Virus record (IMG/VR): IMGVR_UViG_3300042464_000516
Span: 1 to 55,639 of that record
Reading direction: 5' to 3' (one strand)
Source: a virus
Length of the DNA: 55,639 nt
The first letter of the stretch is position 1; every line of letters begins with the position of its first letter. This document shows, piece by piece, positions 2,818 through 55,639 of this stretch. The notes beneath the pieces were generated by a model. That model worked only from the letters and a program-made list of their open reading frames with translations. It made no database searches and was not told the DNA's origin. Position numbers and translations under genes: made by a program.

Positions 2818-3083
2818 GGGAATATCGGTTGATCTTTAATCCAATCATCCACCCATTTTGTTCTGATTGATGATAGCTTCTTTCCGAAAAAAGGCTTTTT
2901 AGGCGGATCAATATCCACGTATCTAGCACCCTCGCACATCGGAATTACTAGCTCTCCAATCTTAAACGGCCAGCCAACCGCTCCATCAATGGCATCTATT
3001 GCTTCTTGAATTGTCTCCGCTTGAACCAAGGCGTATCTTCCGCCAGTGGCTCCCGCGCCCCAATCTATGATGTATGTATTCAT
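2814..3083 (-). CDS. Hypothetical protein, 89 aa
   Basis: Starts MNTYIIDWGAGATGGRYALV. Residues ~8-45 (ALVQAETIQEAIDAIDGAVG) look like a small alpha/beta fold with an 'AEAxxEAxDAID' helix common in short phage proteins. The gene starts within the stop codon of the helicase gene (TAATG), so translation is coupled. No assignable function. Confidence 0.6.
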   Translation of the reverse strand: MNTYIIDWGAGATGGRYALVQAETIQEAIDAIDGAVGWPFKIGELVIPMCEGARYVDIDPPKKPFFGKKLSSIRTKWVDDWIKDQPIFP

Positions 3084-4384
3084 TATTTTATAGGTTCAAA
3101 CTTGGTTAAAGGCCCATTCCATTCCAGCGGAACCTCGATACCCGATGCACCCTCGCGCTGCTTCTCCACGCGCACCTTGCGCGTCCCGTCCTCCTTGTTG
3201 TAGTCAATGGCGATTACAGAGTTGGCGTCGTTCTCGATGTCCGCAGCTTCCCGCGATACCCCGTCCTTATTCACCTGTGACGGGGTGATGATGATGCACT
3301 TGAGTTCGTCGGCCAGCTGCTTGAGCGTTTGTGTCGCGTGACCGATGGAGAGTTGGCGAGTCCCGAAATTGCCTTCAACGTGCAATAATTGTATGTAGTC
3401 TATGAGGACATAATCTAGCTGCTTCTCCGCATTCGCGCTTCTGCACTCCCCGATAATCGAGTTGAGCGTCCTGCACGACTTCGGCATCCGTAGGTTACTC
3501 GCCATCAGCTTTTGCACGGCTCCGGCGACATCCTGTTGCATCTGCTGTGTCCCTGACATATCGCCTGTCCTGAGCGCAACCTTCATCTGGAACCGCGCAG
3601 CCTCCATGTTGTGACCGGATATGCCCGCGATAGCCCGTTTAAGGCATTGCTTCGCTGACATTTCTAGCGGGAAAAACAAGTTGTTGCTGCCCCTGATAGC
3701 CGTCTCCACGATAATCTGTGACCCTAGAGAGGATTTGCCGCTACCCGTGCCGCCCTTGATAGCTACAAAGTCAGAACGATAGAGCTTCAAGTTCTGATCG
3801 AGTGCCGGGATGTAGGTCGGCAGATTGCTTTCATCCTCTTTCCCGCTGGCTATCTCCTGCAAAATCTCCTTCAAGACTTCCTTGATAGGCTGATCCTTGA
3901 TCCGCCCCTGCCCTAGTAGTTCACAGACTTCCCTATGCAGTTCAGCCGCGAGCGCATTGACCCCGCCCTGCTCGTCATACGCCTTGCTCGCATACTTTGT
4001 CCCGATATGAATCAAAGCGCGAGCAATCGCCTTTTCCGTGAGTAAGCCAAGATAGTATTCAGCGTTGGCGGCAGTTGGCAGGAACGTGAACAGGGAGGAA
4101 ACGGCAGCAGCCCCACCCGCTTGATCCAGCTTGCCCTTGTCGCGGAGGAACTGCGTCAGGGTGATGAAGTCCAGGGGCTTCCCTGCTTTCCATAGCGCGG
4201 TTGCCGCTCGAAACAACAGGGAGTGAGCGGGAATCAGGAAGTGCTTGTGAGTGATGCCCATCTTGCTGCATATCGCACCTACCTCGTTTGGGCTTAGAAC
4301 GAGGCACGATAGCACCCCTTTTTCGGCTTCTTCGGATTGAGGGAGCATCCGGTGAATTGCCGGAAGGTAAGTCTGTTCACTCAT
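3083..4384 (-). CDS. dnaB: DnaB-type replicative helicase
   Basis: A hexameric 5'-3' helicase for the replication fork. The N-terminal helical domain begins near MLPQSEEAEKGVLSCLVLSP. The RecA-like motor follows, with Walker A GGTGSGKSS at about residues 210-217 and Walker B (LDYVLIDYIQLL) near 320-332. The tail (DIENDANSVIAIDYNKEDGTRKVRVEKQREG) has the arginine/lysine-rich C-terminal strand seen in the family. At 433 residues it has the usual length. The start is the ATG at 4384, which overlaps the preceding stop as ATGA; a GGGGGAG stretch precedes it, one of few Shine-Dalgarno-like sites here. The upstream DnaD-like gene is a plausible loader. Confidence 0.93.
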   Translation of the reverse strand: MSEQTYLPAIHRMLPQSEEAEKGVLSCLVLSPNEVGAICSKMGITHKHFLIPAHSLLFRAATALWKAGKPLDFITLTQFLRDKGKLDQAGGAAAVSSLFTFLPTAANAEYYLGLLTEKAIARALIHIGTKYASKAYDEQGGVNALAAELHREVCELLGQGRIKDQPIKEVLKEILQEIASGKEDESNLPTYIPALDQNLKLYRSDFVAIKGGTGSGKSSLGSQIIVETAIRGSNNLFFPLEMSAKQCLKRAIAGISGHNMEAARFQMKVALRTGDMSGTQQMQQDVAGAVQKLMASNLRMPKSCRTLNSIIGECRSANAEKQLDYVLIDYIQLLHVEGNFGTRQLSIGHATQTLKQLADELKCIIITPSQVNKDGVSREAADIENDANSVIAIDYNKEDGTRKVRVEKQREGASGIEVPLEWNGPLTKFEPIK

Positions 4385-4695
4385 ATCACTCTCCCCCATA
4401 CCGCGACAATCGCAGCATGACGCCTGGGCTTCTGGCTTTTCATGTAGTGAACCACTTGCAGGTTGTTGCTGACAGCGAATGACCGCATAGCCGCACCAAT
4501 GACGTTAGGGCTACCATCCGGCTCGCCTATCGCCTCAACCACTAGATCGCTGGTAACTGTTCCACGGGCTTGAACGATCATCGCAGCAGCCGTGAAAAAG
4601 CGTTGCTTCCATTCCTCGTTATTGGCGAGAACCTTGGATATGCCACTGTCGCGCAGCGCGGGGCCGGAAAAGTCGAGTTCGTTCTGAGAGTTCAT
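4381..4695 (-). CDS. Hypothetical protein next to helicase
   Basis: A 104-residue protein starting MNSQNELDFSGPALRDSGIS. It has a helical middle (EWKQRFFTAAAMIVQARGTVT) and a C-terminal RRHAAIVAVWGRVI. The start at 4695 is chosen because ATGA overlaps the preceding stop. It sits between the DnaD-like protein and DnaB, so a role in helicase loading or replication is likely. In phages this slot often holds a small, winged-helix-like replication protein, but no motif here proves that. Confidence 0.6.
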   Translation of the reverse strand: MNSQNELDFSGPALRDSGISKVLANNEEWKQRFFTAAAMIVQARGTVTSDLVVEAIGEPDGSPNVIGAAMRSFAVSNNLQVVHYMKSQKPRRHAAIVAVWGRVI

Positions 4696-5561
4696 AGCGC
4701 AGGTAGTTGTTTCTTCCAATCCGCATCCCCGACTTCATCGGGAGTCTGATTCGTCCCGTCAGGACGTTTAGGCCAATCGTTGTAATTCTCCAACAGGGCA
4801 TAGCGTTGTCCTGCTTCCCCGATACACTGTCCACGGGATTTCGCGGGTTTCTGTAACTGGAAGTTCGTCGTGACAGACCGATCCGCGCACGCACGATTGA
4901 TCCAATTCACAAAGAAAGGACGGGAACATTTACGACGCTTCGCTTCACACCAAACTTGAGCCTTTTGCAGTTCAGCGGGAATGTTGATGCCGCGATAGGC
5001 ATCCATCCGTTGCAGTCCAGCAATCCAATCGGCATCAGGAAGCATCGCGGGTTTGCGAGTTGCAGTTTGACGGTCTTTGACATCGTTTGACAAAGTTTGA
5101 CCGACTTCTTCCTTCTTACTTCTTCCTTCTTTTTCTTCTGCTTCTACTTGGGCTAACGGCAGCTTACCGAGTTTACAAGAGTTTACATCAGCTACATCGT
5201 TACCGCTCCGGCGTTTACGCATATAGTCCCTCATGTATTCCCTCCTATCTTCTTCGTTGCGCGTATCCCGATACTTGCAATAGTTTACGCAGTAGTATCC
5301 CCGCTCGCAGTCAGACAGTATCACGCGACGACCATCTTGTTCCTTTGAATTGGAGCTTTCGTCGGGCGACATCAGCGGCACAAGCGCATCCTGCAACTCC
5401 TTTACCGATATGTTCATCCTGCGGGCAATCGCCACATCAGTCCCTATCACGTATCCTTGAGGATCGGCCATAGCCAGCATCATCATAAAGACATAGCGAA
5501 CGGGAACGGCTTCCTCCATTAAGGAGGATTCGGTGATTCTGCTCATCAGTTTTGCATACAT
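4692..5561 (-). CDS. Primosomal/replication initiator-like protein
   Basis: A 289-residue protein beginning MYAKLMSRITESSLMEEAVP. This opening, followed by a winged-helix-like segment (VIGTDVAIARRMNISVKELQ) and the phrase RREYMRDYMRKRR, is typical of phage replication proteins of the DnaD/helicase-loader kind. The C-terminal part (~residues 185-289) is separate and may contact DnaB. I chose the ATG at 5561 over 5567: it matches the usual MY-K start of relatives and lies exactly 8 nt after a -10 hexamer, so the message may be leaderless. Lys/Glu-rich linker near residue 145. Confidence 0.75.
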   Translation of the reverse strand: MYAKLMSRITESSLMEEAVPVRYVFMMMLAMADPQGYVIGTDVAIARRMNISVKELQDALVPLMSPDESSNSKEQDGRRVILSDCERGYYCVNYCKYRDTRNEEDRREYMRDYMRKRRSGNDVADVNSCKLGKLPLAQVEAEEKEGRSKKEEVGQTLSNDVKDRQTATRKPAMLPDADWIAGLQRMDAYRGINIPAELQKAQVWCEAKRRKCSRPFFVNWINRACADRSVTTNFQLQKPAKSRGQCIGEAGQRYALLENYNDWPKRPDGTNQTPDEVGDADWKKQLPAL

Positions 5562-5598
5562 ACCCATGACTGTTAATGTTTACAAGTTTACAAGTCAA
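5562..5598 (-). promoter_or_regulatory. Promoter with tandem repeat for replication genes
   Basis: On the minus strand: TTGACT (5598-5593), 17-nt spacer, TAACAG (5575-5570), 8 nt, then ATG at 5561. The spacer holds two tandem copies of CTTGTAAA (5594-5579), a possible repressor site. The geometry equals that of the promoters before 8025 and 41107. The match to the -10 consensus is only partial. Confidence 0.55.
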
Positions 5599-35539: not shown

Positions 35540-35540
35540 A

Positions 35541-43929: not shown

Positions 43930-44808
43930 CTACTTTTGCTTCCCTAAACTCACCGCATCCCATTCCTTGAACAGATTCTTCAACCACGGGAACATCGGAA
44001 ACTCGCCGCGCTTGGTAGCCATGCAATGCTCGAAAACGGCAACCCCTTTGTAGCTATGCGCGATGCCGAATCCACCCCATTTCGGGGCATCCCCAATTTC
44101 TATCGGGACTCCCGACATTCTGAAGCCTAGCTCAAACGTGAACTTGTCGCCGTGTCCAAGATTAAACCAAACATCGGTATGCTCGTTTAACCAGCCCGTC
44201 CAGCGCAACCCCATCCACCCCTCAACCTTGTCCACTATGAACTGCCCGGTTTCCCATTCCACATCCGGCAGCAACCCGCAATAGGTGTATCCCCAGCGGC
44301 TCGGATGGCACGGCTTAACGTCATTGAAGAATAACGTCTTGCCTTCGCACAACTGGAATATCGTTTCCGGCTTCACCACTGGAAAGCAGTCAGCATCTAT
44401 GAACATGACATGACGCCAGGGGCTATGCGTGACAGCGTAATTCTTCAACACCCACCCGCTCATCTTCCGAACCATGTGCTTCCTTAGGACGTTGAACACG
44501 TTGACCGTTTCTACCCTCATCTCTGCAAAACTTTTCGCGGCCCATACTGGCATCTCCTTCTCGCCTATGTGCCACACCTGTATCGGCAACTCGCACCCCA
44601 ATTCCCGTAGCCTTCGGCATAACACCCAACTCCATGACAGATACTTCCCGCCACCAGCTATCACAATACCGCATCCGGTGCAGTCGGGTGGCTCCGATTC
44701 CAGTAGCCGATTCTTCCTGACATGATTCACCATTGCGCCGCATCGCTGTTCCTCAAATCGAGGCAACCCGATGCTGTCCTTCGCCTGCGTTTCAGCAAGT
44801 GACGGCAT
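43930..44808 (-). CDS. Glycosyltransferase with DxD motif
   Basis: A 292-residue protein. CGIVIAGGGKYLSWSWVLCR begins the nucleotide-binding part, ELPIQVWHIGEKEMPVW follows, and MFIDADCFPVVKP is the D-x-D metal site. This resembles GT71/alpha-mannosyltransferase-like enzymes. It faces the terminase gene tail to tail. It is co-transcribed with the small gene upstream and lies apart from the 35-41 kb glycosyltransferase group, though presumably part of the same glycan task. Confidence 0.72.
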   Translation of the reverse strand: MPSLAETQAKDSIGLPRFEEQRCGAMVNHVRKNRLLESEPPDCTGCGIVIAGGGKYLSWSWVLCRRLRELGCELPIQVWHIGEKEMPVWAAKSFAEMRVETVNVFNVLRKHMVRKMSGWVLKNYAVTHSPWRHVMFIDADCFPVVKPETIFQLCEGKTLFFNDVKPCHPSRWGYTYCGLLPDVEWETGQFIVDKVEGWMGLRWTGWLNEHTDVWFNLGHGDKFTFELGFRMSGVPIEIGDAPKWGGFGIAHSYKGVAVFEHCMATKRGEFPMFPWLKNLFKEWDAVSLGKQK

Positions 44809-44811
44809 ACG

Positions 44812-44970
44812 TTAGATCGAGAACACAGGTTCAGCAGATCGCGCTTCACGTTCCTGCTCCAATTCAGCAAGAAACCGATCCTCGCGCTCACGCCGAAGCT
44901 GCTCGTCAGCCAGTTCATTCAACTGCTCATCAGTCAATTCCCCGGTCAAGATGTCAAACGGTAATCCCAT
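44812..44970 (-). CDS. Small charged helical protein, 52 aa
   Basis: MGLPFDILTGELTDEQLNEL..., followed by an Arg/Glu-rich helix (DEQLRREREDRFLAELEQER). It stops three bases before the glycosyltransferase start and has its own promoter upstream. A similar short Arg/Glu helix occurs in the last plus-strand gene at 55381. Unknown function; probably structural or regulatory. Confidence 0.6.
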   Translation of the reverse strand: MGLPFDILTGELTDEQLNELADEQLRREREDRFLAELEQEREARSAEPVFSI

Positions 44971-44980
44971 ATACGTGTTA

Positions 44981-45026
44981 ACCTTTTACGGGGTTTAACG
45001 ATTACGTCAATACCTTTTATCGGGGT
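44981..45026 (-). promoter_or_regulatory. Promoter flanked by repeated ACCTTTTA-CGGGGT
   Basis: Minus strand: TTGACG (45010-45005) with TAAAAG (44988-44983) at 16 nt. Twelve bases lead to the ATG at 44970. On the plus strand the word ACCTTTTACGGGGT (44981-44994) recurs as ACCTTTTATCGGGGT (45012-45026). One copy overlaps the -10 and one lies just upstream of the -35, a typical operator layout. Confidence 0.5.
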
Positions 45027-45440
45027 GAAGTGCAGCAGGGTTATAGGGATGCAGGGCAGCAGGTGTATCCGGTGTAGAAGGGTTTAGCGGGTTATGGTGA
45101 GACGGGTGCAGCAATCTCCTACTAAAAGAAGATTACTGAAAGAGCTTCGCGGTTTAAAGGAGCCACGGTATGCAGTTTCAACAGTCCTAGCGCGATGGTC
45201 TGACTTTGCCTACGCTTGCCCTGCTTTCGTGGGGCTGACTGTAATCTCTCAGCTTGCGCCGATCAACATTAAGAGGGAAGTGATAGTGATACCCAGCCCT
45301 CTCCATCCATTCGTCGGGGAGTCCTTCTCAGGTTAGTTCCATAGTCGAGGGATAGAACCCCGCCCGATTACACGCTTGGAGCTTCCACCAAGAGGCCGGA
45401 TACGCTGGCCCCGCTCTAGGAGAGTGCTGAAATGCTAGTC
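45027..45440. other. Unassigned 414-nt non-coding stretch
   Basis: No convincing gene. It starts with GGGATGCAG-type words (45046-45054) that recur at 49351 and 49384. Possible pairings: GGGCTG/CAGCCC (45232-45237 with 45294-45299), CTTGG/CCAAG in the 45380s, GGCC/GGCC near 45405. A plus-strand 80-codon frame (45094-45336) and a minus-strand ~39-residue frame are open, but neither resembles a known family. The density of short pairings suggests RNA structure; I could not identify a class and found no tRNA. Confidence 0.4.
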
Positions 45441-45555
45441 CCTAGAAAAACGAAACCCAAACCGGAATCAGCGGTTTGGGTTTCAACTGTCTTGTAGCCC
45501 TAGTTACCCAAGGCATCAGTGCTTTGCTCGCTCCGCTGATTCCGGCTTGCGATCT
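45441..45555 (-). ncRNA. Predicted ~110-nt small RNA with self-complementary terminator loop
   Basis: Minus-strand transcript predicted between a TTGACG promoter (45589) and an intrinsic terminator (45484-45452). Near its 5' end, CCGGAATCAGCGG (45545-45533) is the exact complement of CCGCTGATTCCGG spanning the terminator loop and two base pairs of each arm (45474-45462). The RNA can therefore form either the terminator or a 13-bp alternative pairing, or a loop-loop (pseudoknot) contact while the stem is kept. Both ends lie outside protein genes. The transcript itself is inferred. Confidence 0.5.
45444..45484 (-). terminator. Intrinsic terminator, 12-bp stem and U-run
   Basis: Perfect stem GAAACCCAAACC/GGTTTGGGTTTC with a 9-nt loop (45464-45472). 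On the minus strand it is followed by GTTTTTCT, a U-run. The plus-strand side has no U-run, so termination of leftward transcripts is favoured. Confidence 0.75.
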
Positions 45556-45560
45556 GCACG

Positions 45561-45589
45561 GATACTGCCATGCCCGTTCTATCCGTCAA
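45561..45589 (-). promoter_or_regulatory. Candidate promoter for small RNA
   Basis: Minus strand: TTGACG (45589-45584), 17-nt spacer, AGTATC (45566-45561). The -35 is the same as at other promoters in this genome; the -10 is weak. The transcript would begin near 45555. Confidence 0.4.
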
Positions 45590-45610
45590 ATCTTTTTTCA
45601 ATAAATCTTC

Positions 45611-45639
45611 TTGACCTTGCTAGTAAAGTGCCATATCAC
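45611..45639 (+). promoter_or_regulatory. Promoter of right-arm operon 1
   Basis: TTGACC (45611-45616), 17-nt spacer, TATCAC (45634-45639). The ATG at 45654 follows 14 nt later with no Shine-Dalgarno, giving a leader of only about 7 nt. It is divergent from the small-RNA promoter. Confidence 0.6.
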
Positions 45640-45653
45640 CTACGTCCACACCT

Positions 45654-45839
45654 ATGAAATGCCCACGCTGCAAACTCGTCTGGAAAGTCAAAGCATACGC
45701 CGATGGAGGGAAAATCCGCTGGCGCAAAATGACAAAGGAACAACGCCTCGCATGGGCTGCAAAGATGCAGGAGGGGCGCAGGAAGCAGGTAATCGAAGCA
45801 CGGCTGGCGAAGGAACAAGCTAAAACACAACAACCATGA
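45654..45839 (+). CDS. Small basic CxxC protein, 61 aa
   Basis: MKCPRCKLVWKVKAYADGGK..., with a single CPRC knuckle and a basic helical remainder (QEGRRKQVIEARLAKEQAKT). First gene of right-arm operon 1, coupled to the next by ATGA. Likely nucleic-acid or protein binding. Confidence 0.6.
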   Translation: MKCPRCKLVWKVKAYADGGKIRWRKMTKEQRLAWAAKMQEGRRKQVIEARLAKEQAKTQQP

Positions 45840-46099
45840 ACATACCAAAAATTAACTTCAACGTAGATAAGTATAGGAAAATCTGCCAAAAGCTAGACCC
45901 GATTCTAGCTGAGTCAATCAGTAGCCGAAGCGTGGACGATTGGAACTGTGCGGTAATGGCACTAGCGAGTTCGCTTCTTAGTATGCACATGGACAGCAAG
46001 ACAAGCCTTGAAGATTCCATAAATATGGCGCAGCAGACTATCCAATGTGTGCCGAGCCTCTTTATCGTGATAAGCCAGAGGGAGACCAAGCAACCATGA
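45836..46099 (+). CDS. Hypothetical protein, 87 aa
   Basis: Starts MNIPKINFNVDKYRKICQKL. Mostly helical with scattered Cys (SVDDWNCAVMALASSLLSMH). Overlaps genes on both sides by four bases. No recognised family. Confidence 0.55.
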   Translation: MNIPKINFNVDKYRKICQKLDPILAESISSRSVDDWNCAVMALASSLLSMHMDSKTSLEDSINMAQQTIQCVPSLFIVISQRETKQP

Positions 46100-46152
46100 A
46101 CGAAACCAACCTCAAGACCTTATTCGCATCCGTGAAAGGGGTGACGCTGTGA
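46096..46152 (+). CDS. 18-codon micro-ORF linking two genes
   Basis: MNETNLKTLFASVKGVTL. Its ATG overlaps the preceding stop (ATGA) and its TGA overlaps the next start (GTGA). The double overlap suggests that it is translated as a coupling step even if the peptide has no function. Confidence 0.4.
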   Translation: MNETNLKTLFASVKGVTL

Positions 46153-46415
46153 CCACCACCGAACACCTATCACTCATCGAGTCTAAGTGCGAAGCCAACC
46201 TAGATTATCTGCAACTGTGTCGCAGCGGCGGTGCTCTAATTACAAAAATAGACCTACTTGCCGAAGCTGGATGGAAAAGCACGCTGGCGGCGATTGAGGG
46301 GTTGCGAAAGCTAGCCTTAGAAACAGAGCTTTATCCCGGACATGGCGGAAGCCCGAATGTCCTGCGTGTCATAGACGCAATCATCGCCGCATGGCCCATC
46401 GAACTACTCCAATGA
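46149..46415 (+). CDS. Hypothetical protein, 88 aa
   Basis: GTG start. MTTTEHLSLIESKCEANLDY..., helical with a Gly/Pro turn (ELYPGHGGSPNVLRVIDAII). Coupled to its neighbours by four-base overlaps. Not recognised. Confidence 0.55.
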   Translation: MTTTEHLSLIESKCEANLDYLQLCRSGGALITKIDLLAEAGWKSTLAAIEGLRKLALETELYPGHGGSPNVLRVIDAIIAAWPIELLQ

Positions 46416-46675
46416 ACAATCAACAATGTGCTAATCCAGCTATGACTCCCCACACCTACGACTTCGCGATCTACAACGGCAGGGTCAAGGTCTATGTGGA
46501 CGGCTACGTGATGTTCACGTTCAATCAGATCGATTTTAAGGGCTACTACGCCTACAAGGACGACACGTTGCTGTTCGGCATAGACATCTACCTCGTTGAT
46601 ACGACGATGGAAATCTACTTCAAAACCAAGGAAAACTGGTTCGCAATTCTCGCGCTACTCGACAAAAATCTATGA
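46412..46675 (+). CDS. Hypothetical beta-rich protein, 87 aa
   Basis: Starts MNNQQCANPAMTPHTYDFAI at ATG 46412, which overlaps the previous stop. Rich in Tyr/Phe strands (IYNGRVKVYVDGYVMFTFNQ). Possibly a small beta-barrel. No recognised family. Confidence 0.55.
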   Translation: MNNQQCANPAMTPHTYDFAIYNGRVKVYVDGYVMFTFNQIDFKGYYAYKDDTLLFGIDIYLVDTTMEIYFKTKENWFAILALLDKNL

Positions 46676-47464: not shown

Positions 47465-47814
47465 GCAACGAACTACCACGAACAGACATAACACCTGAGC
47501 TTGCCCGCGACGTAGCTGAGCATGAATGTGAAAAGCTACGCATCGAACTCGCCGCAGTCACCGCAGAGCTGGAGATGTGGCGAGATGGAAGCATAGTTAG
47601 GGAAGAAGATAAGGCCGAGCGGGATGCGCTGAAACACGCGCTAATCGAACTTGAGGCGGCAGCGGAAGCGTATGCAGCAGATCAATCGCGGGCTACCGAT
47701 AGCCGATGCGGGCTTGTTCAGCCGATAACCGTAGAGGACGGCAATCGCCTATTGTCCGCGCTGAAAGCAGCAAACGAACTCTCGGCAATACCGAGACTTG
47801 GAGGCGAACAATGA
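47461..47814 (+). CDS. Hypothetical helical protein, 117 aa
   Basis: MSNELPRTDITPELARDVAE..., with an Ala/Glu-rich helix (LRIELAAVTAELEMWRDGSI). Overlaps genes on both sides by four bases. No recognised domain. Confidence 0.55.
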   Translation: MSNELPRTDITPELARDVAEHECEKLRIELAAVTAELEMWRDGSIVREEDKAERDALKHALIELEAAAEAYAADQSRATDSRCGLVQPITVEDGNRLLSALKAANELSAIPRLGGEQ

Positions 47815-48299
47815 GCGCAACCAACCGTGGCGCAATCCGCCGAGAAGCAGATTTCTACGCCACCCCACTATCAGCATTTACCCAGCTCTTGCCGTATCTG
47901 GACAGGAATCTCGAACATTGGGAGCCATCCTACGGAGACGCAAGACTCGTCACATCCATGCTGGATTACAAAATAGCCGCATTCGGCAACGACCTAAACA
48001 ACGGATACGACTTCCTAAAGGACGACACCCTACGCGAGTGCATCATCACCAACCCGCCCTACTCCATCGCTTTCGAGTTCTGCCAGCACGCAGTAGCTCA
48101 TGCAGACGAAGTATTCATGCTGCTTCGGATCAACTTCCTCGCCAGCCGCAAACGAGCAGCATGGTTTAAGGCAAACGAACCTTCCGCATTATTCGTCCTG
48201 AGCAAACGCCCATGCTTCACGGACAACGGAAAGACAGATGCGACAGACTACGCATGGTTCTATTGGGGCAACAGACACAAGGGAATCATCCATCTATGA
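47811..48299 (+). CDS. DNA adenine methyltransferase-like (NPPY) protein
   Basis: A 162-residue protein. DFYATPLSAFTQLLPYL and EPSYGDARLV form the AdoMet-binding start, and TNPPYS (residues 80-85) is the N6-adenine catalytic motif. The following VFMLLRINFLASRKRAAWF and the end WFYWGNRHKGIIHL are usual in phage-type adenine methyltransferases. The start at 47811 overlaps the preceding stop (ATGA); a longer start lacks support. The typical motif I glycines (P-x-G) are modified to SYGDA. May shield phage DNA from restriction. Confidence 0.78.
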   Translation: MSATNRGAIRREADFYATPLSAFTQLLPYLDRNLEHWEPSYGDARLVTSMLDYKIAAFGNDLNNGYDFLKDDTLRECIITNPPYSIAFEFCQHAVAHADEVFMLLRINFLASRKRAAWFKANEPSALFVLSKRPCFTDNGKTDATDYAWFYWGNRHKGIIHL

Positions 48300-48511
48300 C
48301 CCCAACCCCGCTCACCACCGCAGCCCTTTCTTCCCTCAACAATCAACTGATGACCAAGGCCGACTTCATCCAGTTCGCCCAATCCCTTGAACTCCAACTC
48401 ATCGCAGCATCCCTTGAACGGGACTCCCTGCTACTCGACCACCGCAAAGTCTGCGCAGCCTGCCGGGAACTGGAAAAGTGCAAAACCCCATTACTCAACT
48501 TCCTTGAATAA
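48296..48511 (+). CDS. Hypothetical protein, 71 aa
   Basis: Starts MTPTPLTTAALSSLNNQLMT at ATG 48296, with a C-terminal CAACRELEKC motif. It overlaps the methyltransferase stop (ATGA), and its end overlaps the TTG start of the next gene. Sits between two methyltransferases; role unknown. Confidence 0.55.
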   Translation: MTPTPLTTAALSSLNNQLMTKADFIQFAQSLELQLIAASLERDSLLLDHRKVCAACRELEKCKTPLLNFLE

Positions 48512-49088
48512 CCTACTCCACGATCTCGGCGGCAGTAAGTTCGGCTGCATCCTCGCAGACCCTCCTTGGCAGATATGCACAGGAGGAAAAGGTGGATGGG
48601 GAACGCCTCAAATGCACTACCAAGTTATGCCTACGCCTCAAATAATCAGAGAGCTTCAATGGGTAAAGCCGCTAATAGCGGAACAGGCTAACTGCTATTT
48701 ATGGGTCGTGAATAATAAACTTCAAGACGGCTTGGATTTAATGAAGGAGCTAGGATTTCACTACATAACAAACTTGGTGTGGGTGAAGGACAAAATCGGC
48801 ATGGGGCAATACTTTCGAGGCCAGCACGAACTGCTTCTTTTCGGCAGAAAAGGAAAGCCGATGCCATACAGGTATGAGGCTGGTAAGCGAGTAACTATCT
48901 CAAGCGTCATCTCGGAGCCAAAACAAGATCATAGCAGAAAACCCGATAGCTTTTACTCGATAATCGAACGCATAAGTTACGGCCCATATCTTGAACTATT
49001 CGCCCGCCGAAAACGACCAGGCTGGACTGCATGGGGAAATCAGGTTGAATACGACTTGCTCTCATCCGTTGATAATACACGCATATAA
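48504..49088 (+). CDS. MT-A70-family adenine methyltransferase
   Basis: A 194-residue enzyme with DPPW (residues 19-22; ILADPPWQICTGG), the catalytic motif of MT-A70-type N6-adenine methyltransferases. ELGFHYITNLVWVKDKIGMG and GQHELLLFGRKGKP are typical later blocks. TTG 48504 is chosen because the frame overlaps the end of the preceding gene there; the ATG at 48387 would add 39 residues read off-frame through that gene. Last gene of this operon. The next 1,070 nt are non-coding. Confidence 0.82.
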   Translation: MNNLLHDLGGSKFGCILADPPWQICTGGKGGWGTPQMHYQVMPTPQIIRELQWVKPLIAEQANCYLWVVNNKLQDGLDLMKELGFHYITNLVWVKDKIGMGQYFRGQHELLLFGRKGKPMPYRYEAGKRVTISSVISEPKQDHSRKPDSFYSIIERISYGPYLELFARRKRPGWTAWGNQVEYDLLSSVDNTRI

Positions 49089-50093
49089 ACAATCAATCCC
49101 CCTAACCACCTGATCTATTTTCCCCTGTTGGACAAATATAATCTTGACACGTTTCCATCTTCCAGATTCCCTCGCGTGTAGATCATAAACGCGAAGCGGA
49201 TCATGGCTATATCGGGGAATAGGGATGTCGTGTTGCACCGTTGCACGTAGCACCGTTGCCGCGATCCACTTCAACCGCTCTCCACTTCACCACGGTATAA
49301 GAAAGTGAACGGACGCTCCGTATTCACGGTTGCAGGGTTGCCGAGCAGCAGGGATGCAGGAGTGCGGGGTTGCAGCGGTAATAGGGATGCAGCGGTATCG
49401 GGTTGTCGTGGTTCCGCTGAAAACGGTTTCAGAGGTAAAATCTGCGGGAGGGGTGTTACGGAACCGCATCTCCGCTGATCCGCCCCTCCCGCTAGGGTGG
49501 ATCACCCATTGCTCCGGGCAAAGGGATTCCTTAGCCCCTGCACCACGGCAGCCCCAGCAGCAGCACAGCACCAGCACCAGCACCGGACAGCCCCAGCAGC
49601 AGGAGACAGCGGCAGCAGGCGACAACAGCAGCAGCTATCCACTGAACACGCTCCTCCCCGATATAAGGAGCAGCACCAGCACCGGACAGCACAGCACCAG
49701 CGCGACCAGCGATCCACGGCCCACGCTCGACCACGGATCAGCAGGTGCGGCAGGTGCAGAAATACCCGAAAGACGCAGCACCCACGGCATTGTCTACCAA
49801 TCCGATAGACAATCAGAGGGGATGAACGGTTGAACGGTGCTCGGATGCAGTATGCCCGCAAATGGCAGAAATGGCAGCAGCGCAGAAGAAGCAGGAGACG
49901 CAAACCACCGCATCCCGATCACCCTTCACCACGGCAGCACCGGACAAGCGACAACAGCACCACGGCAGCACCTGGACGACGACACCCGAAGCACCACGGC
50001 AGCCGATGCAGCCGATGCTAAGCGCACCAGAATAGTCAGCGTGACCGAATATCTATTTTCCCGACTTGGCACGGTTTCTGTTTTTCCGCTCTA
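49089..50093. repeat. Repeat-rich non-coding region, possible origin
   Basis: About 1 kb without a convincing gene. Repeats: GGGATGCAG at 49351-49359 and 49384-49392 (also 45046-45054); CACCGTTGC twice near 49236 and 49251; AGCACCAGCACCGGACAGC twice near 49570 and 49672; CACCACGGCAGC four times between 49541 and 50000. A 10-bp stem GCGGGAGGGG/CCCCTCCCGC (49444-49453, 49483-49492) is followed by GGGTG/CACCC. Open frames here read low-complexity sequence and I rejected them. Candidates: origin, packaging or regulatory region. Confidence 0.55.
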
Positions 50094-50122
50094 AACTATT
50101 TTAGTTAAAAAGTGAAATAGTT
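50094..50122. promoter_or_regulatory. Inverted repeat operator candidate
   Basis: AACTATTT-N13-AAATAGTT, two perfect 8-bp arms, ends two bases before the -35 of the right-arm promoter. Likely repressor or activator site. Confidence 0.5.
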
Positions 50123-50123
50123 A

Positions 50124-50152
50124 TTGACGGCAGACGTGCACCGTGTAGATTC
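50124..50152 (+). promoter_or_regulatory. Promoter of right-arm operon 2
   Basis: TTGACG (50124-50129) with TAGATT (50146-50151) at 16 nt, or AGATTC at 17 nt. The GTG at 50159 follows 7 nt after TAGATT, close to the leaderless spacing seen at 5561, 8025 and 41107. Confidence 0.6.
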
Positions 50153-50158
50153 CCCTAC

Positions 50159-50674
50159 GTGAGAACATTCAACATCCACCAACAAAAACCACTTATGAAA
50201 CACTCCACCCAACTAGCCGATATACTAGCGGACGCATATATCAGCGACAAACCCGCACCCGGCCACGCTTGCGACAAATGCGGACACATCACGCACGACG
50301 GCATTGAGACTTTGCAACACTTGATCGAGTGCGCGAAGCCCGCCGCCGCCGCGCTTGCTATGCAGCGCAAACACAACCAGCAACAAGCCGCCCTTGGAGC
50401 TTGCGTCATCCTCACGCCAGGCGACCCCGCAGAGCGCGATCCCGATTTGATGGCCGAGCGCATAGCAGCGCAAAAGGCGATCTATCTCGCAGAAATGGAA
50501 AAGCGCAACACGGCAGCACAGACCGCACAGCCCAACAACGACAGCACCCGCAAAACCTACGTTGCCGAATACATGAACGGAAAGACCCGCCGCTTCAAGT
50601 GCCGCACCTACGCCGAAGCCGTGCAAAAGGCACACGCCGTCTCTCCCGCAGTAGCAGACATCACCGAACTCTAA
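50159..50674 (+). CDS. Zinc-finger-like protein, 171 aa
   Basis: The frame starts GTG 50159 (leaderless) or ATG 50195 (MKHSTQLADILADAYISDKP). HACDKCGHITHDGIETLQHLIEC near residue 37-60 gives C-x2-C with later His and Cys, a zinc-finger-like pattern. The rest is Ala/Gln-rich, with a C-terminal TRRFKCRTYAEAVQKAHAVS. Probably the first gene of right-arm operon 2. Not a known family. Confidence 0.6.
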   Translation: MRTFNIHQQKPLMKHSTQLADILADAYISDKPAPGHACDKCGHITHDGIETLQHLIECAKPAAAALAMQRKHNQQQAALGACVILTPGDPAERDPDLMAERIAAQKAIYLAEMEKRNTAAQTAQPNNDSTRKTYVAEYMNGKTRRFKCRTYAEAVQKAHAVSPAVADITEL

Positions 50675-50694
50675 ACCATAACCCTTTTAACGCA

Positions 50695-50925
50695 ATGACA
50701 CTTCCACCGCTTTTCTACCGCTCACGTTCAACCCCTGCAATCAGCAACCGCACCTTGCAGAGTGAGCGAGGATGCTATCTTTACAACTGTTTGACCGATC
50801 CCGCCAAACTCCGCACCGATGCCGAGCACGCCCGATGCCGCAAGCACGCCCGCAAAGTCCGCGCTTTCCTATTCCGCAAGGGCTGGGCATTTGAATCTGA
50901 AAATGGAACCCTTTCCCCCCGCTAA
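50695..50925 (+). CDS. Basic hypothetical protein, 76 aa
   Basis: MTLPPLFYRSRSTPAISNRT..., Arg-rich, with a helix AEHARCRKHARKVRAFLFRK. Leader is A/C-rich with no Shine-Dalgarno. No recognised family. Confidence 0.5.
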   Translation: MTLPPLFYRSRSTPAISNRTLQSERGCYLYNCLTDPAKLRTDAEHARCRKHARKVRAFLFRKGWAFESENGTLSPR

Positions 50926-50950
50926 ACCAACAAACCAACACCGCACCACC

Positions 50951-51316
50951 GTGATCACACTATCCAAAACAACCGCACCCACCAAAAGCCAGGAGATCGC
51001 CGCACTTGTCGCATTCTGCAAATCCCTGCCAGATAACAGCTATCTTGCCGAGTGGCTGAACTACGCGATCCCCTCAATCATACAGGCGATCACAAGCGAC
51101 ATTTTCCCCGATGCGCTCCCGGCCCATGCAGCGCAGCACGCGAAGCAAATCCGCGAAGACGCGAAAGCCGACGCTGAACAGATCAAGGCGCAGGCGATGC
51201 GCGAGGCTAAGCAAATCACAGCAGCAGCAACAGCAGCAACCGAGGAGCAACGCCGCAAGCTCAACCGAGACACCGAATCACTCCGCGCCACCGCCCGCGC
51301 AATTTTGAACAACTAA
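50951..51316 (+). CDS. Hypothetical helical protein, 121 aa, GTG start
   Basis: Starts GTG 50951 (MITLSKTTAPTKSQEIAALV), chosen because an A/C-rich leader (CCAACACCGCACCACC) stands directly before it, like that before the next gene. A long Ala/Glu/Lys helix fills residues ~65-110 (AKADAEQIKAQAMREAKQIT). Possibly a coiled-coil partner. Family unknown. Confidence 0.5.
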   Translation: MITLSKTTAPTKSQEIAALVAFCKSLPDNSYLAEWLNYAIPSIIQAITSDIFPDALPAHAAQHAKQIREDAKADAEQIKAQAMREAKQITAAATAATEEQRRKLNRDTESLRATARAILNN

Positions 51317-51337
51317 ACCACCGCACCACCGCACCCG

Positions 51338-51556
51338 ATGAAAGACCTTTCCAACATTGACAAAAGCGCGTTCCGCCGTGGCGAGTATATCGGTTACGCA
51401 AACGGAACCTACCGCATCACGCGCAGCACTTCCAGCTATGGAAAATGGCACGCGCAACCGATCCCGCTTTACGATGCAGCCGGGAACCAACGGCCCGCCT
51501 TCTACGGTTTCACCCTTTCGCAGATCAACGCCAACCTCGTAAACCTTAACAAATGA
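51338..51556 (+). CDS. Hypothetical beta-rich protein, 72 aa
   Basis: MKDLSNIDKSAFRRGEYIGY..., with aromatic strands (ANGTYRITRSTSSYGKWHAQ). The leader ACCACCGCACCACCGCACCCG has no Shine-Dalgarno. Coupled by ATGA to the next gene. Not recognised. Confidence 0.55.
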   Translation: MKDLSNIDKSAFRRGEYIGYANGTYRITRSTSSYGKWHAQPIPLYDAAGNQRPAFYGFTLSQINANLVNLNK

Positions 51557-51687
51557 CCGCAAAACCCATCACCACCGCACCCCGCATCCGGCACAACCTC
51601 GCCAGCTATCGCAGAGCGCAAACGATCCACCGGGCGATCATCTTAACCCTTTTGACCCTTGCCGCTATCATCGCGGCGAGCTTGTAA
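51553..51687 (+). CDS. Small membrane protein, 44 aa
   Basis: MTAKPITTAPRIRHNLASYR..., basic N-terminus and one membrane segment, residues ~28-44 (AIILTLLTLAAIIAASL). Overlaps the previous stop as ATGA. Confidence 0.55.
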   Translation: MTAKPITTAPRIRHNLASYRRAQTIHRAIILTLLTLAAIIAASL

Positions 51688-51735
51688 CCCCTGGAGCGCA
51701 ACAACAACAAAACCAAACACCACAAAAGCAACAAC

Positions 51736-52734
51736 ATGAAAACAACGACAGCACCAGCACCAGCAACCGAAGCAACCACCACCACGAACGACTTGCGCCA
51801 CGGCATTACCATAATCAGCGGAAACGAGCGCACCACGATCAAAATCCGCCTCAATGACGAATGCAACAACGGACACGAGGATTTCAGCATCACCGCAGAC
51901 GTTGACGAGAAGCGCAAAAACGGCAGATGGGTAAATTTAATGGCAGGATGCTGTCACGATCAAATATTGAAACTTCGCCCCGATCTCGCGCCCTTTGTGA
52001 CGCTCCACCTTTGCACACACGAAGGCTTGCCGATGCACAGCGCAGCGAATGCTTTCTACTGGTTCGCTGGTTTCAGTGGCGGACTAGGGCAGCAGTATCA
52101 CGGCGGAAGCGGAAAAAGCGGAAATAGCGCGGAAGATTGCCGCCGAATTTTTGCCGAGCATATCCACGCAACCAACGAACAAGTTGCCGCCATCGTCGCA
52201 GCAATGCCGCGCACGGAGCTAGAACTCCGCGCAGTCTTAGAGGATCACGGATTCATTGCACAATGGAAAGGCGAAGCAGATGCCGCTATCGCAATGCTGG
52301 AACAGTGGACAGGTAAAAAGTTCAAGAGCACAGCGACCCGTGGCTTGTGGGACACCGTAACACCCGAACAACGCGCACAGATCGAGCATCGTCGCGCTTC
52401 CGGATACTACACGCCCGAACAAGTCGCAGCACGCGACAAGGCGAAAGCAAAGGCGCAGAAATCCGCGAAGCTGGCAGAAATCCGCGCAGACCTAGCGAAG
52501 AAGATCGAGAAGGAGCAACGCGGCGCGCAAGTTGCGCTTTACATGGCCGAACGCTATTTCCCGCGCTTCCGCAACTTCATTTACTACACCCACAGCAACA
52601 CGATCAGTTTCAACTGGAGCAGCACGGAGAAGTTGACCACCCGCGACGAGTTTGATCAGGTAGTAGCAGAAGCAGACCGATCCGCACTTCCCGAAGGCAT
52701 CGCGTTCACCTTTCAAGATCGCCCGAAATACTAG
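51736..52734 (+). CDS. Conserved phage protein of unknown function, 332 aa
   Basis: An N-terminal Thr/Pro/Ala stretch is followed by a domain with WVNLMAGCCHDQILKLRPDL and FVTLHLCTHEGLPMHSAANA. Its Cys/His-rich 'G-C-x-H-x-x-I ... H-x-x-x-x-x-G-x-P-M-H' pattern is one I have seen in uncharacterised phage and plasmid proteins. Residues ~235-275 are a Lys/Ala/Glu helix; the C-terminus is aromatic. The start is embedded in a CAA-rich leader. A strong hairpin follows at 52734. Function unknown; possibly metal-dependent. Confidence 0.6.
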   Translation: MKTTTAPAPATEATTTTNDLRHGITIISGNERTTIKIRLNDECNNGHEDFSITADVDEKRKNGRWVNLMAGCCHDQILKLRPDLAPFVTLHLCTHEGLPMHSAANAFYWFAGFSGGLGQQYHGGSGKSGNSAEDCRRIFAEHIHATNEQVAAIVAAMPRTELELRAVLEDHGFIAQWKGEADAAIAMLEQWTGKKFKSTATRGLWDTVTPEQRAQIEHRRASGYYTPEQVAARDKAKAKAQKSAKLAEIRADLAKKIEKEQRGAQVALYMAERYFPRFRNFIYYTHSNTISFNWSSTEKLTTRDEFDQVVAEADRSALPEGIAFTFQDRPKY

Positions 52735-52787
52735 CCCCGCACCCCGCCCTTTTCCCCGGTCACCGAGGCGAAGGGCGGCAGCGGGGC
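52734..52787. terminator. Two-step hairpin after 332-aa gene
   Basis: Stems GCCCCGC/GCGGGGC (52734-52740 with 52781-52787) and CCGCCCTT/AAGGGCGG (52744-52751 with 52771-52778). No U-run follows, so it may attenuate transcription or protect RNA rather than fully terminate. Confidence 0.5.
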
Positions 52788-52831
52788 CGGATAAACCCAG
52801 CAACCGAAGCAACACCACATCCACCACGACC

Positions 52832-53050
52832 ATGAAATCACACGACCTCTGCAACCTTGCTGTCATTTTCCGACGCAACAGCAGCGACACGAACCACGTT
52901 TCAACCCTTGAACTAATAACGCAGGCGGGGCTTGCTTTCCTTTTCGGAGTATATCGCGGAACCCCCGAACGCTACACCCGCAAACGCCGCCAGATTCGGA
53001 ACGAGATTGCCGATGCACTAGAGCGCAAAGCACAGGAGGCAACCCGATGA
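52832..53050 (+). CDS. Hypothetical protein, 72 aa
   Basis: MKSHDLCNLAVIFRRNSSDT..., with a hydrophobic helix (LITQAGLAFLFGVYRG) and a basic C-terminal helix (TRKRRQIRNEIADALERKAQ). Follows a CACCACGACC-type leader. Overlaps the next gene by ATGA. Family unknown. Confidence 0.5.
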   Translation: MKSHDLCNLAVIFRRNSSDTNHVSTLELITQAGLAFLFGVYRGTPERYTRKRRQIRNEIADALERKAQEATR

Positions 53051-53238
53051 CAACAAGCACCCGCGCAACCTATGCACCCGCAGCAACCCACTTCCGCGAT
53101 GGGCGGGGAGTGCTCTGGAAAATGTCAGACTTTTGCGGCGATTACGTCCGGGTAATTTGCGGCACTTGGAAGATTCCAGCACAGCCGAACGCGATCCGGC
53201 CATTGACCTACCACAAAACCCTTTCACCCCAGCACTAA
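53047..53238 (+). CDS. Hypothetical protein, 63 aa
   Basis: MTTSTRATYAPAATHFRDGR..., with KMSDFCGDYVRVICGTWKIP in the middle. Overlaps the preceding stop. No family assignment. Confidence 0.45.
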   Translation: MTTSTRATYAPAATHFRDGRGVLWKMSDFCGDYVRVICGTWKIPAQPNAIRPLTYHKTLSPQH

Positions 53239-53274
53239 ACAACAACAACACAACAACACAACAACACCACAACA

Positions 53275-53679
53275 ATGAAAACCACATCACAGAAAAGCTA
53301 CCAGCAGATCGCCGGAGACAGCACAACAGATCGCGTTACTGGCGGGGACACCGCGCCCGCTTCACCCGGTCACACGCCGGAGATCGCAGCGATACCCGGA
53401 GCAGATGAAACGCTTTTGCGCGAGGTATTAGAGGACGCATTCGCCACCGATACGGAAACAGAGGATCAACTTTGCACGCTTGTCGCAAGTCTTTTCTCGC
53501 ATACAGAGACACAGAGAGCAGAGATCAAAGCGTTGCGGGATGCGCTCGCCGCCGCTGTGCAGTATCTTGAAAAGCACCGCCCCACGGGAAAAATCCGCGA
53601 CATATTCAGTGAGTTGAACGAATATGAAAACGGGGTGATGAAGCCCGCACGCGCAGCCTTGAAAGGAGCGACCAAATGA
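53275..53679 (+). CDS. Hypothetical acidic protein, 134 aa
   Basis: MKTTSQKSYQQIAGDSTTDR..., then an acidic helical domain (ETLLREVLEDAFATDTETED) and a C-terminal coiled coil. The start is preceded by ~30 nt of CAA-repeat sequence and no Shine-Dalgarno, like the SSB gene. Coupled to the next gene by ATGA. Unknown function. Confidence 0.55.
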   Translation: MKTTSQKSYQQIAGDSTTDRVTGGDTAPASPGHTPEIAAIPGADETLLREVLEDAFATDTETEDQLCTLVASLFSHTETQRAEIKALRDALAAAVQYLEKHRPTGKIRDIFSELNEYENGVMKPARAALKGATK

Positions 53680-54032
53680 TCACCTATATCCTCACAAGGC
53701 GGATCAAGCGCAAGCTATGGGGAATCGCCGGAACAAGTTGCGGAGGTTGCATCGCAGGAGCGGAAACCGTTTTCAGCTTTTGCGGGGCGGGGCAACCCGG
53801 CGACGAGGTTGCATGGGCAACAGTTGAAAAGCAGAAAAACTATGCGGGGCGAATCCCTAGCTTCCGCGAAGTCTCATGCACAGCACGCGAGAAATCGATC
53901 CACTGGCATCGCCAAACGGCAAGCGCACCCCATTACCCGACCTTTGCCCGATACATCGAGACTTTTGACGATGCAGCGCAATACGAGGCAGAACTGGCAG
54001 ACATTTTCGAGAAGAAAGGAGCAACAGTATGA
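53676..54032 (+). CDS. Hypothetical Cys-containing protein, 118 aa
   Basis: MITYILTRRIKRKLWGIAGT..., with TSCGGCIAGAETVFSFCGAG, three Cys close together, and an acidic C-terminus. Overlaps both neighbours by four bases. Not recognised. Confidence 0.5.
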   Translation: MITYILTRRIKRKLWGIAGTSCGGCIAGAETVFSFCGAGQPGDEVAWATVEKQKNYAGRIPSFREVSCTAREKSIHWHRQTASAPHYPTFARYIETFDDAAQYEAELADIFEKKGATV

Positions 54033-54319
54033 ACGCGAACCACTACAAGGCAACGCTTGAGCATATGCTAGGCGTGAAGCTGAAACGATGCCGGATCGGA
54101 GCCGGATCGATGCGGCAGTATATCAAAATCAGCATTGCCGCACCCTTCCCGCCACTTGAGCACAGCGCAGACAGTAGAGCGCGGAACGAGTGGATCGGAT
54201 CGCGGGTAGGATTTGCCCCGTTTTATACGTCGCGGGAATACAATGGCGACGTTTGCGCTGACTTGCGGATCGGAGCGATCAAGATGCCAGCAGAAAATTA
54301 TGCGGAGGTGGCGCAATGA
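54029..54319 (+). CDS. Hypothetical protein, 96 aa
   Basis: MNANHYKATLEHMLGVKLKR..., with RCRIGAGSMRQYIKISIAAP and a beta-like remainder. Coupled to neighbours by ATGA at each end. No family recognised. Confidence 0.5.
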   Translation: MNANHYKATLEHMLGVKLKRCRIGAGSMRQYIKISIAAPFPPLEHSADSRARNEWIGSRVGFAPFYTSREYNGDVCADLRIGAIKMPAENYAEVAQ

Positions 54320-55017
54320 ACCCCGCAACCCCGAAACACTGGACACTTCACGCGAAGCTAACAGCACTCGCGGAACGCGGAACCGATGGAGAGCGCGAAA
54401 GCGCAGCCGCGAAGCTCGCCAAACTTTGCACCCGCTACGACTTCACCACTCCACCAGAAGCAACAGGCGACATTTTTTCCGGCTTCGCCTTTTCCCATTG
54501 CATCCGAGGCGAAGCGCAACCGCTGATTGAATTGCCGGATGCTGATGGAGATATAGCTTCCGCTATCAAGTGGGCATTTGAAAGCCAGCTAGGGCTGGCG
54601 GGGAGCTTCCGCTATGCCGGAGCCAAGCTAGAAATCCGCATAGCCTCCCCCGCTTCCGCTATGCCCGGCTTGCGCTCACTGGCGGAATCCATCGGCAAAA
54701 GTTTCGCCCGACTATGGCAGGAGTTCGCCAAGACACCGGGCATCGAGCAGAACGTGAAACGGCAGTTTATTGCTGGACTTACAGACGGGATGCTCCACGA
54801 CGAAAGGCGGGGACAGGCACTCCCACCACCGATTACCGCTAAAAAGCCCAAGGCGGGGCGCAGGAAGCGTGCAATCGGGCATCCCGTAGGCGTTGCCGTC
54901 CACCCTTACAGCGTAGCCGTGGAAATGGGGCGCAGGGTAAGAGTTGCAGCCCCGATAGGAGCGATAGTCGAAGAATTGCAGAACACCGTAGCAGCGTTGC
55001 AGGAGGTTGCAGCATGA
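54316..55017 (+). CDS. Possible DUF2786-like protein, 233 aa
   Basis: The first ~40 residues (LTALAERGTDGERESAAAKL then AKLCTRYDF) resemble the repeat of DUF2786-type proteins, 'A-x-G-T-x-x-E-R-x-x-A-x-x-K-x-x-x-L'. The centre (SFARLWQEFAKTPGIEQNVK) is helical, and the end is basic (KKPKAGRRKRAIGHPV), suited to DNA contact. Overlaps both neighbours by four bases. The DUF call is tentative. Confidence 0.5.
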   Translation: MNPATPKHWTLHAKLTALAERGTDGERESAAAKLAKLCTRYDFTTPPEATGDIFSGFAFSHCIRGEAQPLIELPDADGDIASAIKWAFESQLGLAGSFRYAGAKLEIRIASPASAMPGLRSLAESIGKSFARLWQEFAKTPGIEQNVKRQFIAGLTDGMLHDERRGQALPPPITAKKPKAGRRKRAIGHPVGVAVHPYSVAVEMGRRVRVAAPIGAIVEELQNTVAALQEVAA

Positions 55018-55229
55018 ACTACTACCCGATAGGCACAAAGTTCACCCCGATAGGCAAGCACGCAACGGAATGCACCGTGACCGATATGCTGACAACCCGC
55101 AATCTGGCAGGGGAGATCGTGGCAATCCGATACGTTGCAACGCATATTTTTATGGGGCAGACAGTGACAAACCGCGACATCGCAGCCGCGACAATAGCGC
55201 GAGGCATAGGCGGGGAGGTGAAGTCATGA
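55014..55229 (+). CDS. Hypothetical protein, 71 aa
   Basis: MNYYPIGTKFTPIGKHATEC..., a small beta-rich protein (TVTDMLTTRNLAGEIVAIRY). Overlaps both neighbours by four bases. No known family. Confidence 0.5.
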   Translation: MNYYPIGTKFTPIGKHATECTVTDMLTTRNLAGEIVAIRYVATHIFMGQTVTNRDIAAATIARGIGGEVKS

Positions 55230-55384
55230 AAAAGAAAATCACCAAATCCGCCAGAAAGAAGGCAAGGAAGTTGCAGGCTTTTAAGTTACTGCGAATGCGC
55301 TACGAAAGCGCAAGAACCAGCCGGGACTTTTTCGCAAAACTTACAAAACAGCTAAGGGCGGAAATGAAACAAGCAAAGCCATGA
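55226..55384 (+). CDS. Very basic protein, 52 aa
   Basis: MKKKITKSARKKARKLQAFK..., Lys/Arg-rich and helical, probably nucleic-acid binding. The ATG at 55226 overlaps the previous stop; the longer frame upstream is off-frame. Function unknown. Confidence 0.55.
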   Translation: MKKKITKSARKKARKLQAFKLLRMRYESARTSRDFFAKLTKQLRAEMKQAKP

Positions 55385-55530
55385 ACCTTCTCCACTTCAT
55401 CCTCGACATTAACCGCGCCCGCGCAGAGGCTATACGCCGAGAGCTTGAACAGCGTGACCGTGCAGACGACAACCCGACAACCGAGCAGCCCGAACCCGCG
55501 CAACCAGCAATCCCGGCAGCACCGGAATAG
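55381..55530 (+). CDS. Last right-arm gene, 49 aa
   Basis: MNLLHFILDINRARAEAIRR..., Arg/Glu-rich helix (ELEQRDRADDNPTTEQPEPA) and a Pro/Ala-rich tail. It resembles the small protein at 44812 in composition only. Overlaps the preceding stop (ATGA). Followed by a strong terminator. Confidence 0.5.
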   Translation: MNLLHFILDINRARAEAIRRELEQRDRADDNPTTEQPEPAQPAIPAAPE

Positions 55531-55567
55531 TTAATACGGATAAACCTTTCATTGTGGTGATGGATAG

Positions 55568-55610
55568 TCGCCTCGTCCGTGTCTCGACATGGGCGGGGCG
55601 ATTCCCTTTT
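55568..55610 (+). terminator. Strong terminator ending right-arm operon
   Basis: A 34-nt hairpin, 55568-55601, with ~15 pairs (three G-U) and a CTCG loop: TCGCCTCGTCCGTGT pairs with ACATGGGCGGGGCGA. On the plus strand it is followed by TTCCCTTTT. If the contig is circular, the leftward gene at 1-481 would end 37 nt before it, so it could be bidirectional. Confidence 0.8.
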
Positions 55611-55639
55611 AATCCTCCAACAGATTCGTTTCCCCAATC

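Follow-up and report, generated by a model that had tools for sequence, protein, structure and literature searches.

Conserved blocks, variable repeat arrays and a predicted promoter in a non-coding gap ahead of the right early arm of a phage genome

The stretch of DNA analysed here (the window) is a 55,639-bp IMG/VR virus record. Two relatives, L047 and L048, join its last base to its first through 7 bases, and the window thus represents an almost complete circular map of approximately 55,646 bp; another relative, G003, measures 58,277 bp and carries an exact 127-bp terminal repeat. Leftward genes occupy the region from ~1.3 to 41 kb and include those for an exonuclease VIII-like protein, a Gp2.5-like protein and a DnaB helicase. 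Most of 41-55 kb is taken up by rightward genes, one of which (42055-43929) encodes a product that we call terminase-like on account of Walker-type motifs read by eye. This protein had no significant family match, and tblastn found no match to it in a 50,697-record phage collection, which may omit the window's own or very near records. Two side observations concern the map itself. Relative G002 is listed as 100% identical to window positions 27206-46617 and departs outside them, and G001 matches positions 1-27656 (listed as 100%; 97.1% over 26660-27656) and 47540-55639 (99.9%), also departing beyond these; the window may have arisen from the two by recombination or as an assembly chimera, around 27206-27656. 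At 1712-2750 on the minus strand, frames 1712-2542 and 2007-2750 overlap and each matches DNA methyltransferase families, perhaps as a frameshifted or overlapping pair.

Positions 49089-50158 form a 1070-bp non-coding gap, the largest in the gene list apart from 1-1333, where small ORFs were left out. It follows directly on an MT-A70 DNA methyltransferase gene and precedes the first listed gene of the right early arm, whose product matched no family above its cutoff. An earlier note had described a repeat-dense intergenic region with four repeats, a 10-bp GC stem and an 8-bp AT-rich dyad, and exact counts on both strands of the window located all of them inside this gap. The repeats CACCGTTGC (2 copies, at 49236 and 49251), AGCACCAGCACCGG (2 copies, at 49573 and 49672) and CACCACGGCAGC (4 copies, at 49541, 49927, 49958 and 49992) are absent elsewhere in the window on either strand. 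The stem pairs 49444-49453 with 49483-49492 (10/10 pairs), and the dyad consists of 50094-50101 and 50115-50122. The fourth repeat, GGGATGCAG, is found on the plus strand at 49351, 49384, 45046 and 1663 and on the minus strand at 15315 and 18600, and is thus not specific to the region by itself; the copy at 45046 bears out the remark that it also occurs in the 45-kb gap. What the earlier note left unnamed is the feature that unifies them: GGGATGCAG, GGTTGCAG and their variants all belong, as units, to a single octamer array. Along the gap we distinguish, in order, block A, array 1 (the octamers), block B, array 2 and block C (Table 1).

Table 1. Features of the non-coding gap and of the other regions discussed in the text.
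Feature	Position	Strand	Basis or remark
DnaB-type replicative helicase gene, downstream of the initiator-like gene	3083..4399	-	PHROG 3.1e-67; Pfam DnaB_C 1e-29
Replication-initiator-like gene containing the 5065-5101 repeats	4692..5567	-	via L140 relative
Candidate origin, 4 x GTCAAAC/G at exactly 10-bp pitch beside a purine tract	5065..5101	-	repeat scan
Glycosyltransferase-like gene	43930-44808	leftward	Mannosyl_trans3, 2.2e-20
Second, short octamer array in the 45-kb gap	45016..45110	+	GGTTATAG GGATGCAG GGCAGCAG, preceded by TTTATCGGGG
MT-A70 DNA methyltransferase gene, directly upstream of the non-coding gap	48387..49088	+	Pfam MT-A70 4.2e-22
Block A, conserved promoter-like segment	49089..49224	+	aligned in 5 lineages, L013 core only
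Array 1, degenerate octamer array, unit ~GGNTGYMG	49225..49415	+	8-bp lag and unit positions
Block B, conserved core (AAACGGTTTCAGAGGTAAAATCTGCG ... GGCAAAGGGATT) with 10-bp GC stem	49416..49545	+	alignment, 5 lineages
Array 2, CAGCAC/CACCACGGCAGC/GGCAGC simple-repeat tract	49546..50030	+	composition; T-poor
Block C, predicted right-arm promoter TTGACG (50124) -16- TAGATT (ends 50151), AT-rich dyad	50031..50158	+	motif scan; conserved in L011
First listed gene of the right early arm	50159..50674	+	ORF list; GTG start as listed, true start may be later

Megablast of 48500-50700 against known phages gave no match, and relatives were sought through proteins: 20 loci came from the terminase-like protein, 25 from the MT-A70 protein (22 in other phages, at 35-43% identity) and 3 from the ORF at 51736. 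Sequence patterns for the octamer and for the two conserved blocks, A and B, supplied further ones. Five lineages carry the region: the window with L059 and L060; L010; L011; L058, L061, L018, L009 and L008; and L013 with L012. In the near relatives G001 and G008 it is listed as 100% identical over 1211 bases. Blocks A and B align in 5/5 lineages, in L013 by their cores only. Since the other four lineages match the search patterns that were used, and L013 was located by its terminase-like gene and not via the block A or B patterns, only L013 is an independent witness of this conservation. As a side observation, L013 and L012 each hold a tRNA-Met gene (13596-13670) in the same control gap, and the window has none there.

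The patterns also reached sequences beyond the family. That for block A matched 37 viral stretches; among the new loci (L065-L101), outside the family only L079 and L081 matched any of the 15 window proteins tried, through a remote terminase match (25%) that itself encloses the pattern, and we took these two as chance. The gapped block B pattern, which misses L011, whose box differs, matched 14 viral stretches, of which 7 are contigs of this family, and 38 genome stretches; six non-family viral stretches (L073 left out) and the 38 genome stretches showed no resemblance to block B by eye. Blastn of block B against known phages returned a single chance-level match (E 5), and its peptide gave 5 weak matches against plasmids (best E 0.4).

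Array 1 holds seven motif units in the window, all on the plus strand (49328, 49336, 49352, 49368, 49377, 49385 and 49401), with periodicity at lags 8, 16 and 24. Its lag-8 autocorrelation was reached by 0/1000 dinucleotide shuffles, and likewise in L010 and L011, where the array is also degenerate. In L058, L061, L009, L008 and L018 the same position is occupied by perfect GGTTGCAG runs, with 12 units in L058, 15 in L061 and 28 in L009 (27 perfect units and one variant, followed by GGTTGAGC as in L058); the L008 contig stops within a run of at least 15 units. Identity between L058 and L061 is 99.84% across 9636 bp, and L018 matches L008 and L009 alike at 100% across 6965 bp. Thus, the number of octamers differs between near-identical phages, assemblies permitting, as unit numbers are derived from assemblies and may be collapsed. 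Indeed, three contigs (L008, L009 and L018) stop inside the octamer array or at its edge, that of L010 stops in array 2 and that of L061 begins 8 bases before the octamers, as would be expected if repeats break assemblies. In L013 the octamers are absent: between TTGACA and block B there is no motif unit on either strand and lag-8 was reached by 677/1000 controls, though the cores of A and B are kept. Minisatellites consist of perfect tandem units of variable copy number, and the L058 lineage resembles them in both respects, in near-identical genomes; the window differs, its array being degenerate and the region identical in G001 and G008. L009 also carries, at 14817-15056, a 12-bp unit repeated 20 times (GGCAGCGAGGTC), which does not appear in the window's list of tandem repeats.

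The short octamer array of the 45-kb gap is found in L011 as well, and is not present in the L010 stretch shown. A G-quadruplex reading of the GGG-N5 units was set aside as inconsistent between lineages, canonical motifs at 49 kb numbering 0 in the window, 1 in L010, 0 in L011, 3 in L058, 3 in L061 and 0 in L013, and at 45 kb 0 in the window and 1 in L011. Among the 485-bp stretches sampled, array 2 has the lowest T content and is the richest in CAGCA/CACCA/GGCAGC. It differs in L011 and L058, the same simple words recur in both, and its RNA folding did not exceed that of shuffles.

The right end of the gap carries a promoter-like site of the phage's own class. The motif TATTGACG-N15-18-TA matches four times in the window against 0.15 expected, and 0/100 shuffles reach four. 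Three of the matches, at 41146(-), 45012(-) and 50122(+), lie in gaps ahead of operons and point in the right direction; the fourth, 16950(-), is inside the large gene 8121-17024. At 50122-50147 the sequence, the N16 spacing and the position before an operon all agree with this class. These matches support the right-arm promoter of the earlier note and the placing of a predicted promoter at 50124-50151. A generic promoter scan found overall no more promoters than in shuffles (2 vs 2.2). The -10 ends 7 bases before the listed GTG at 50159, which suggests that the transcript is nearly leaderless or that the true start codon lies later. The second arm of the AT-rich dyad, operator-like according to the earlier note, matches L011 at only 6/8 positions by eye, and block C, dyad included, is hardly alignable in L013. 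The corresponding gap of L058 has no TATTGACG, the only copy in that sequence being at 5549; since L058 nevertheless holds block A, array 1, block B and array 2, this module is independent of the right-arm promoter, an observation that weighs against the control-and-spacer reading favoured below.

Block A consists of TATTTTCCCCTGTTGG ... TTGACA at 49144, followed by TCGCGT/ACGCGA arms and TATATCGGGG. It could act as a second rightward promoter or a regulator site. Against the former, no recognisable -10 is visible and the promoter scan did not list the block on the plus strand.

Could the conserved blocks be transcribed into a functional product? We consider it highly improbable that the gap is a decayed or unrecognised protein gene. 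One plus frame through block B is open in 5/5 lineages examined, but several other frames are open too, as T-poor repeats predict; none of 10 pairs shows a clear third-position excess, and the 3' part of the block is conserved across a frame change (L058, L013). With codon positions changing about equally and a frame change within the conserved block, coding capacity was rejected. A structured non-coding RNA, encoded from block A through block B, is a rather unlikely reading. Positions 49165-49545 fold better than shuffles in the window (z -3.1; z -2.9), as does L010 (z -2.3 on the plus and -2.7 on the minus strand), but on the plus strand the values are -0.8 for L011, +1.6 for L058 and -1.8 for L013, and block B folds just as well on its minus strand. 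The TATATCGGGG arm pairs with a downstream arm in four sequences and shows a U-G/U-A change; in the window two outer pairs are broken. The block B helices pair in more cells than slid versions do (GC stem, 78% vs 56-68%; second hairpin, 83% vs 30-70%), an excess that is partly expected because the helices were taken from the window; against shuffles, at least as many cells pair in 308/500 cases for the GC stem and in 500/500 for the second hairpin. Among the five sequences available, no covariation of these helices rose above the shuffle control, and Rfam gave 0 matches at gathering score over the window. Block B may instead be a cis-acting site, on the DNA or on a leader transcript.

The earlier note had offered the region as an origin, and in favour of this the non-coding gap does hold direct repeats and lies between blocks of early genes. 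Phage P4 uses octamer iterons at two sites (ori and crr), and in the window and in L011 there are likewise two arrays of the same octamer per genome, at two separate places. By this analogy the octamers could be initiator-binding iterons of a replication origin or a second origin, a reading that we regard as very unlikely. The resemblance to P4 is limited: there is no P4-alpha-type protein among the proteins scanned, the octamer sequence differs, and the octamers are lost in L013, loss of the repeats in relatives being one of the outcomes that the earlier note had named as speaking against its proposal. The skew check that it suggested gave no change of sign across the region, another of those outcomes, the raw GC slope being -0.041 over the 5 kb before and -0.066 over the 5 kb after, and the detrended extremes lie elsewhere, at 20115 and 43929. 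The region is not A+T-rich either, with a GC content of 0.567 over 49089-50122 versus 0.531 genome-wide; the ten lowest-GC 100-bp windows include none from this region but do include the one at 5544, where the initiator-like gene starts. An 8-bp pitch is not helically phased, as a 10-bp pitch would be. Finally, the region lies neither in nor beside an initiator gene, the initiator-like gene being on the other strand and ~11 kb away on the circle, and it is this gene, upstream of that for DnaB, that holds the better candidate.

A scan for four equally spaced 7-mers found the repeats at 5065-5101, within the initiator-like gene, and otherwise only a CAA microsatellite at 53242, with 0 hits in 5 Markov-generated controls; the scan is blind to array 1, whose units are too degenerate. 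Three sequences from two lineages (L140, L141 and L142) hold four GTTCAA units at the same 10-bp pitch in the same place of the same gene. For the window protein itself no family match reached significance, and a PDB sequence search gave one match only, at E 0.77. Its L140 relative (41% identity in the alignment) matches a DnaD-like loader (2.2e-18) and an O-like initiator (1.7e-14). Between the window and L061 this protein differs mainly in the first ~165 residues, with the middle part of the L140 protein diverging as well; the C-terminal ~50 residues hardly vary among the four proteins aligned. A structure model built from a two-row alignment had a mean pLDDT of 45.6 and was set aside. One small ORF (4381-4719) separates the initiator-like gene from the DnaB gene. 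We also note further GTAAAC direct repeats at 5169-5187 and 5578-5595 on the minus strand, inside and just before the initiator-like gene, which could be additional sites for the initiator or a regulator.

In lambda, gene O contains the replication origin, which comprises iterons and an A+T-rich stretch (PMC5043065). It shares with 5065-5101 a repeat array inside an initiator or initiator-like gene, four copies, a neighbouring purine-rich tract and a helicase gene nearby, and it differs in having 19-bp inverted repeats where the window has direct repeats at 10-bp pitch (PMC5043065). The 49-kb region has in common with a lambda-type origin only the presence of repeats. The repeats in the initiator-like gene, the family matches of L140, the DnaB gene downstream and the parallel with lambda together make ~5.05-5.2 kb the likely location of a candidate origin.

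Two further suggestions for the region were packaging and recombination. A packaging-initiation site (pac or cos) recognised by the small terminase would sit well with a gap that lies ~5 kb away from the terminase-like gene and holds repeats and conserved blocks, and with genomes that assemble as circles, as seen for the terminal repeat of G003 and for the joined ends of the window in L047 and L048. We nevertheless hold this to be quite unlikely: the gap does not adjoin the terminase-like gene, L013 lacks the octamers, any permuted or circular genome is expected to assemble as a circle, and a small terminase was not identified. The pac site of P1 is enriched in GATC, and a similar enrichment was considered here and dropped as inconsistent between lineages (observed/expected 9/4.2 in the window, 7/4.6 in L011, 6/2.2 in L010, 3/3.4 in L058 and 3/4.2 in L013).

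The hot-spot suggestion has something in its favour. Allele swaps and a gene loss do adjoin block A: L011 and L058 carry a 47-48% allele in place of the MT-A70 gene, L010 lacks the gene, and the flanks are kept. The phage also has genes for a Gp2.5-like annealing protein and an exonuclease VIII-like protein. These observations would suit a recombination linker, in which blocks and arrays give homology for cassette exchange by the phage's Red-type recombination. However, conserved patches with divergent genes between them extend over the whole L011 early arm; as this mosaicism is so spread, the gap is not marked as special for exchange, and the linker is unlikely.

On balance, and with a modest lean, we favour the reading that the gap is a non-coding control and spacer segment of the early (rightward) arm with slippage-prone arrays, and not the main replication origin. 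Of the earlier reading of the region as a whole, the promoter is retained and the origin is not. At the sequence level this control-and-spacer reading draws on the own-class promoter-like site at the right end, the conservation of blocks A and B across five lineages, and arrays between them that vary in length and unit. The arrays would be filler generated by slippage, without sequence-specific function and tolerated because length is not critical here, and would be dispensable. Two observations stand against the filler view, and pure filler predicts neither: the degenerate octamer period survives in three lineages, and same-strand octamers recur at 45 kb. They leave some room, at long odds, for the alternative that the 45-kb and 49-kb arrays are putative sites of one phage-encoded multimeric nucleic-acid-binding protein (in partition, packaging or transcript-level control) that tolerates GGNTGYMG variants at a fixed 8-bp pitch, with blocks A and B organising the larger of the two arrays and the perfect L058-lineage array being a strengthened form tunable by unit number.

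Tailed phages have non-coding early control regions. The control and spacer segment that we favour is like them in having a promoter before an early gene block and conserved cis blocks within a gap of ~1 kb, and unlike them in its two variable simple-repeat arrays, one of which is an 8-bp minisatellite recurring in a second gap. A region first noted as an origin, packaging site or hot spot is in this way dissected into conserved blocks and variable arrays. The analysis also points to a different, testable origin in a phage family whose terminase-like protein is unmatched in the 50,697-record collection (own or near records possibly omitted), and the occurrence of two repeat types alongside two initiator types offers a lead for replication specificity.
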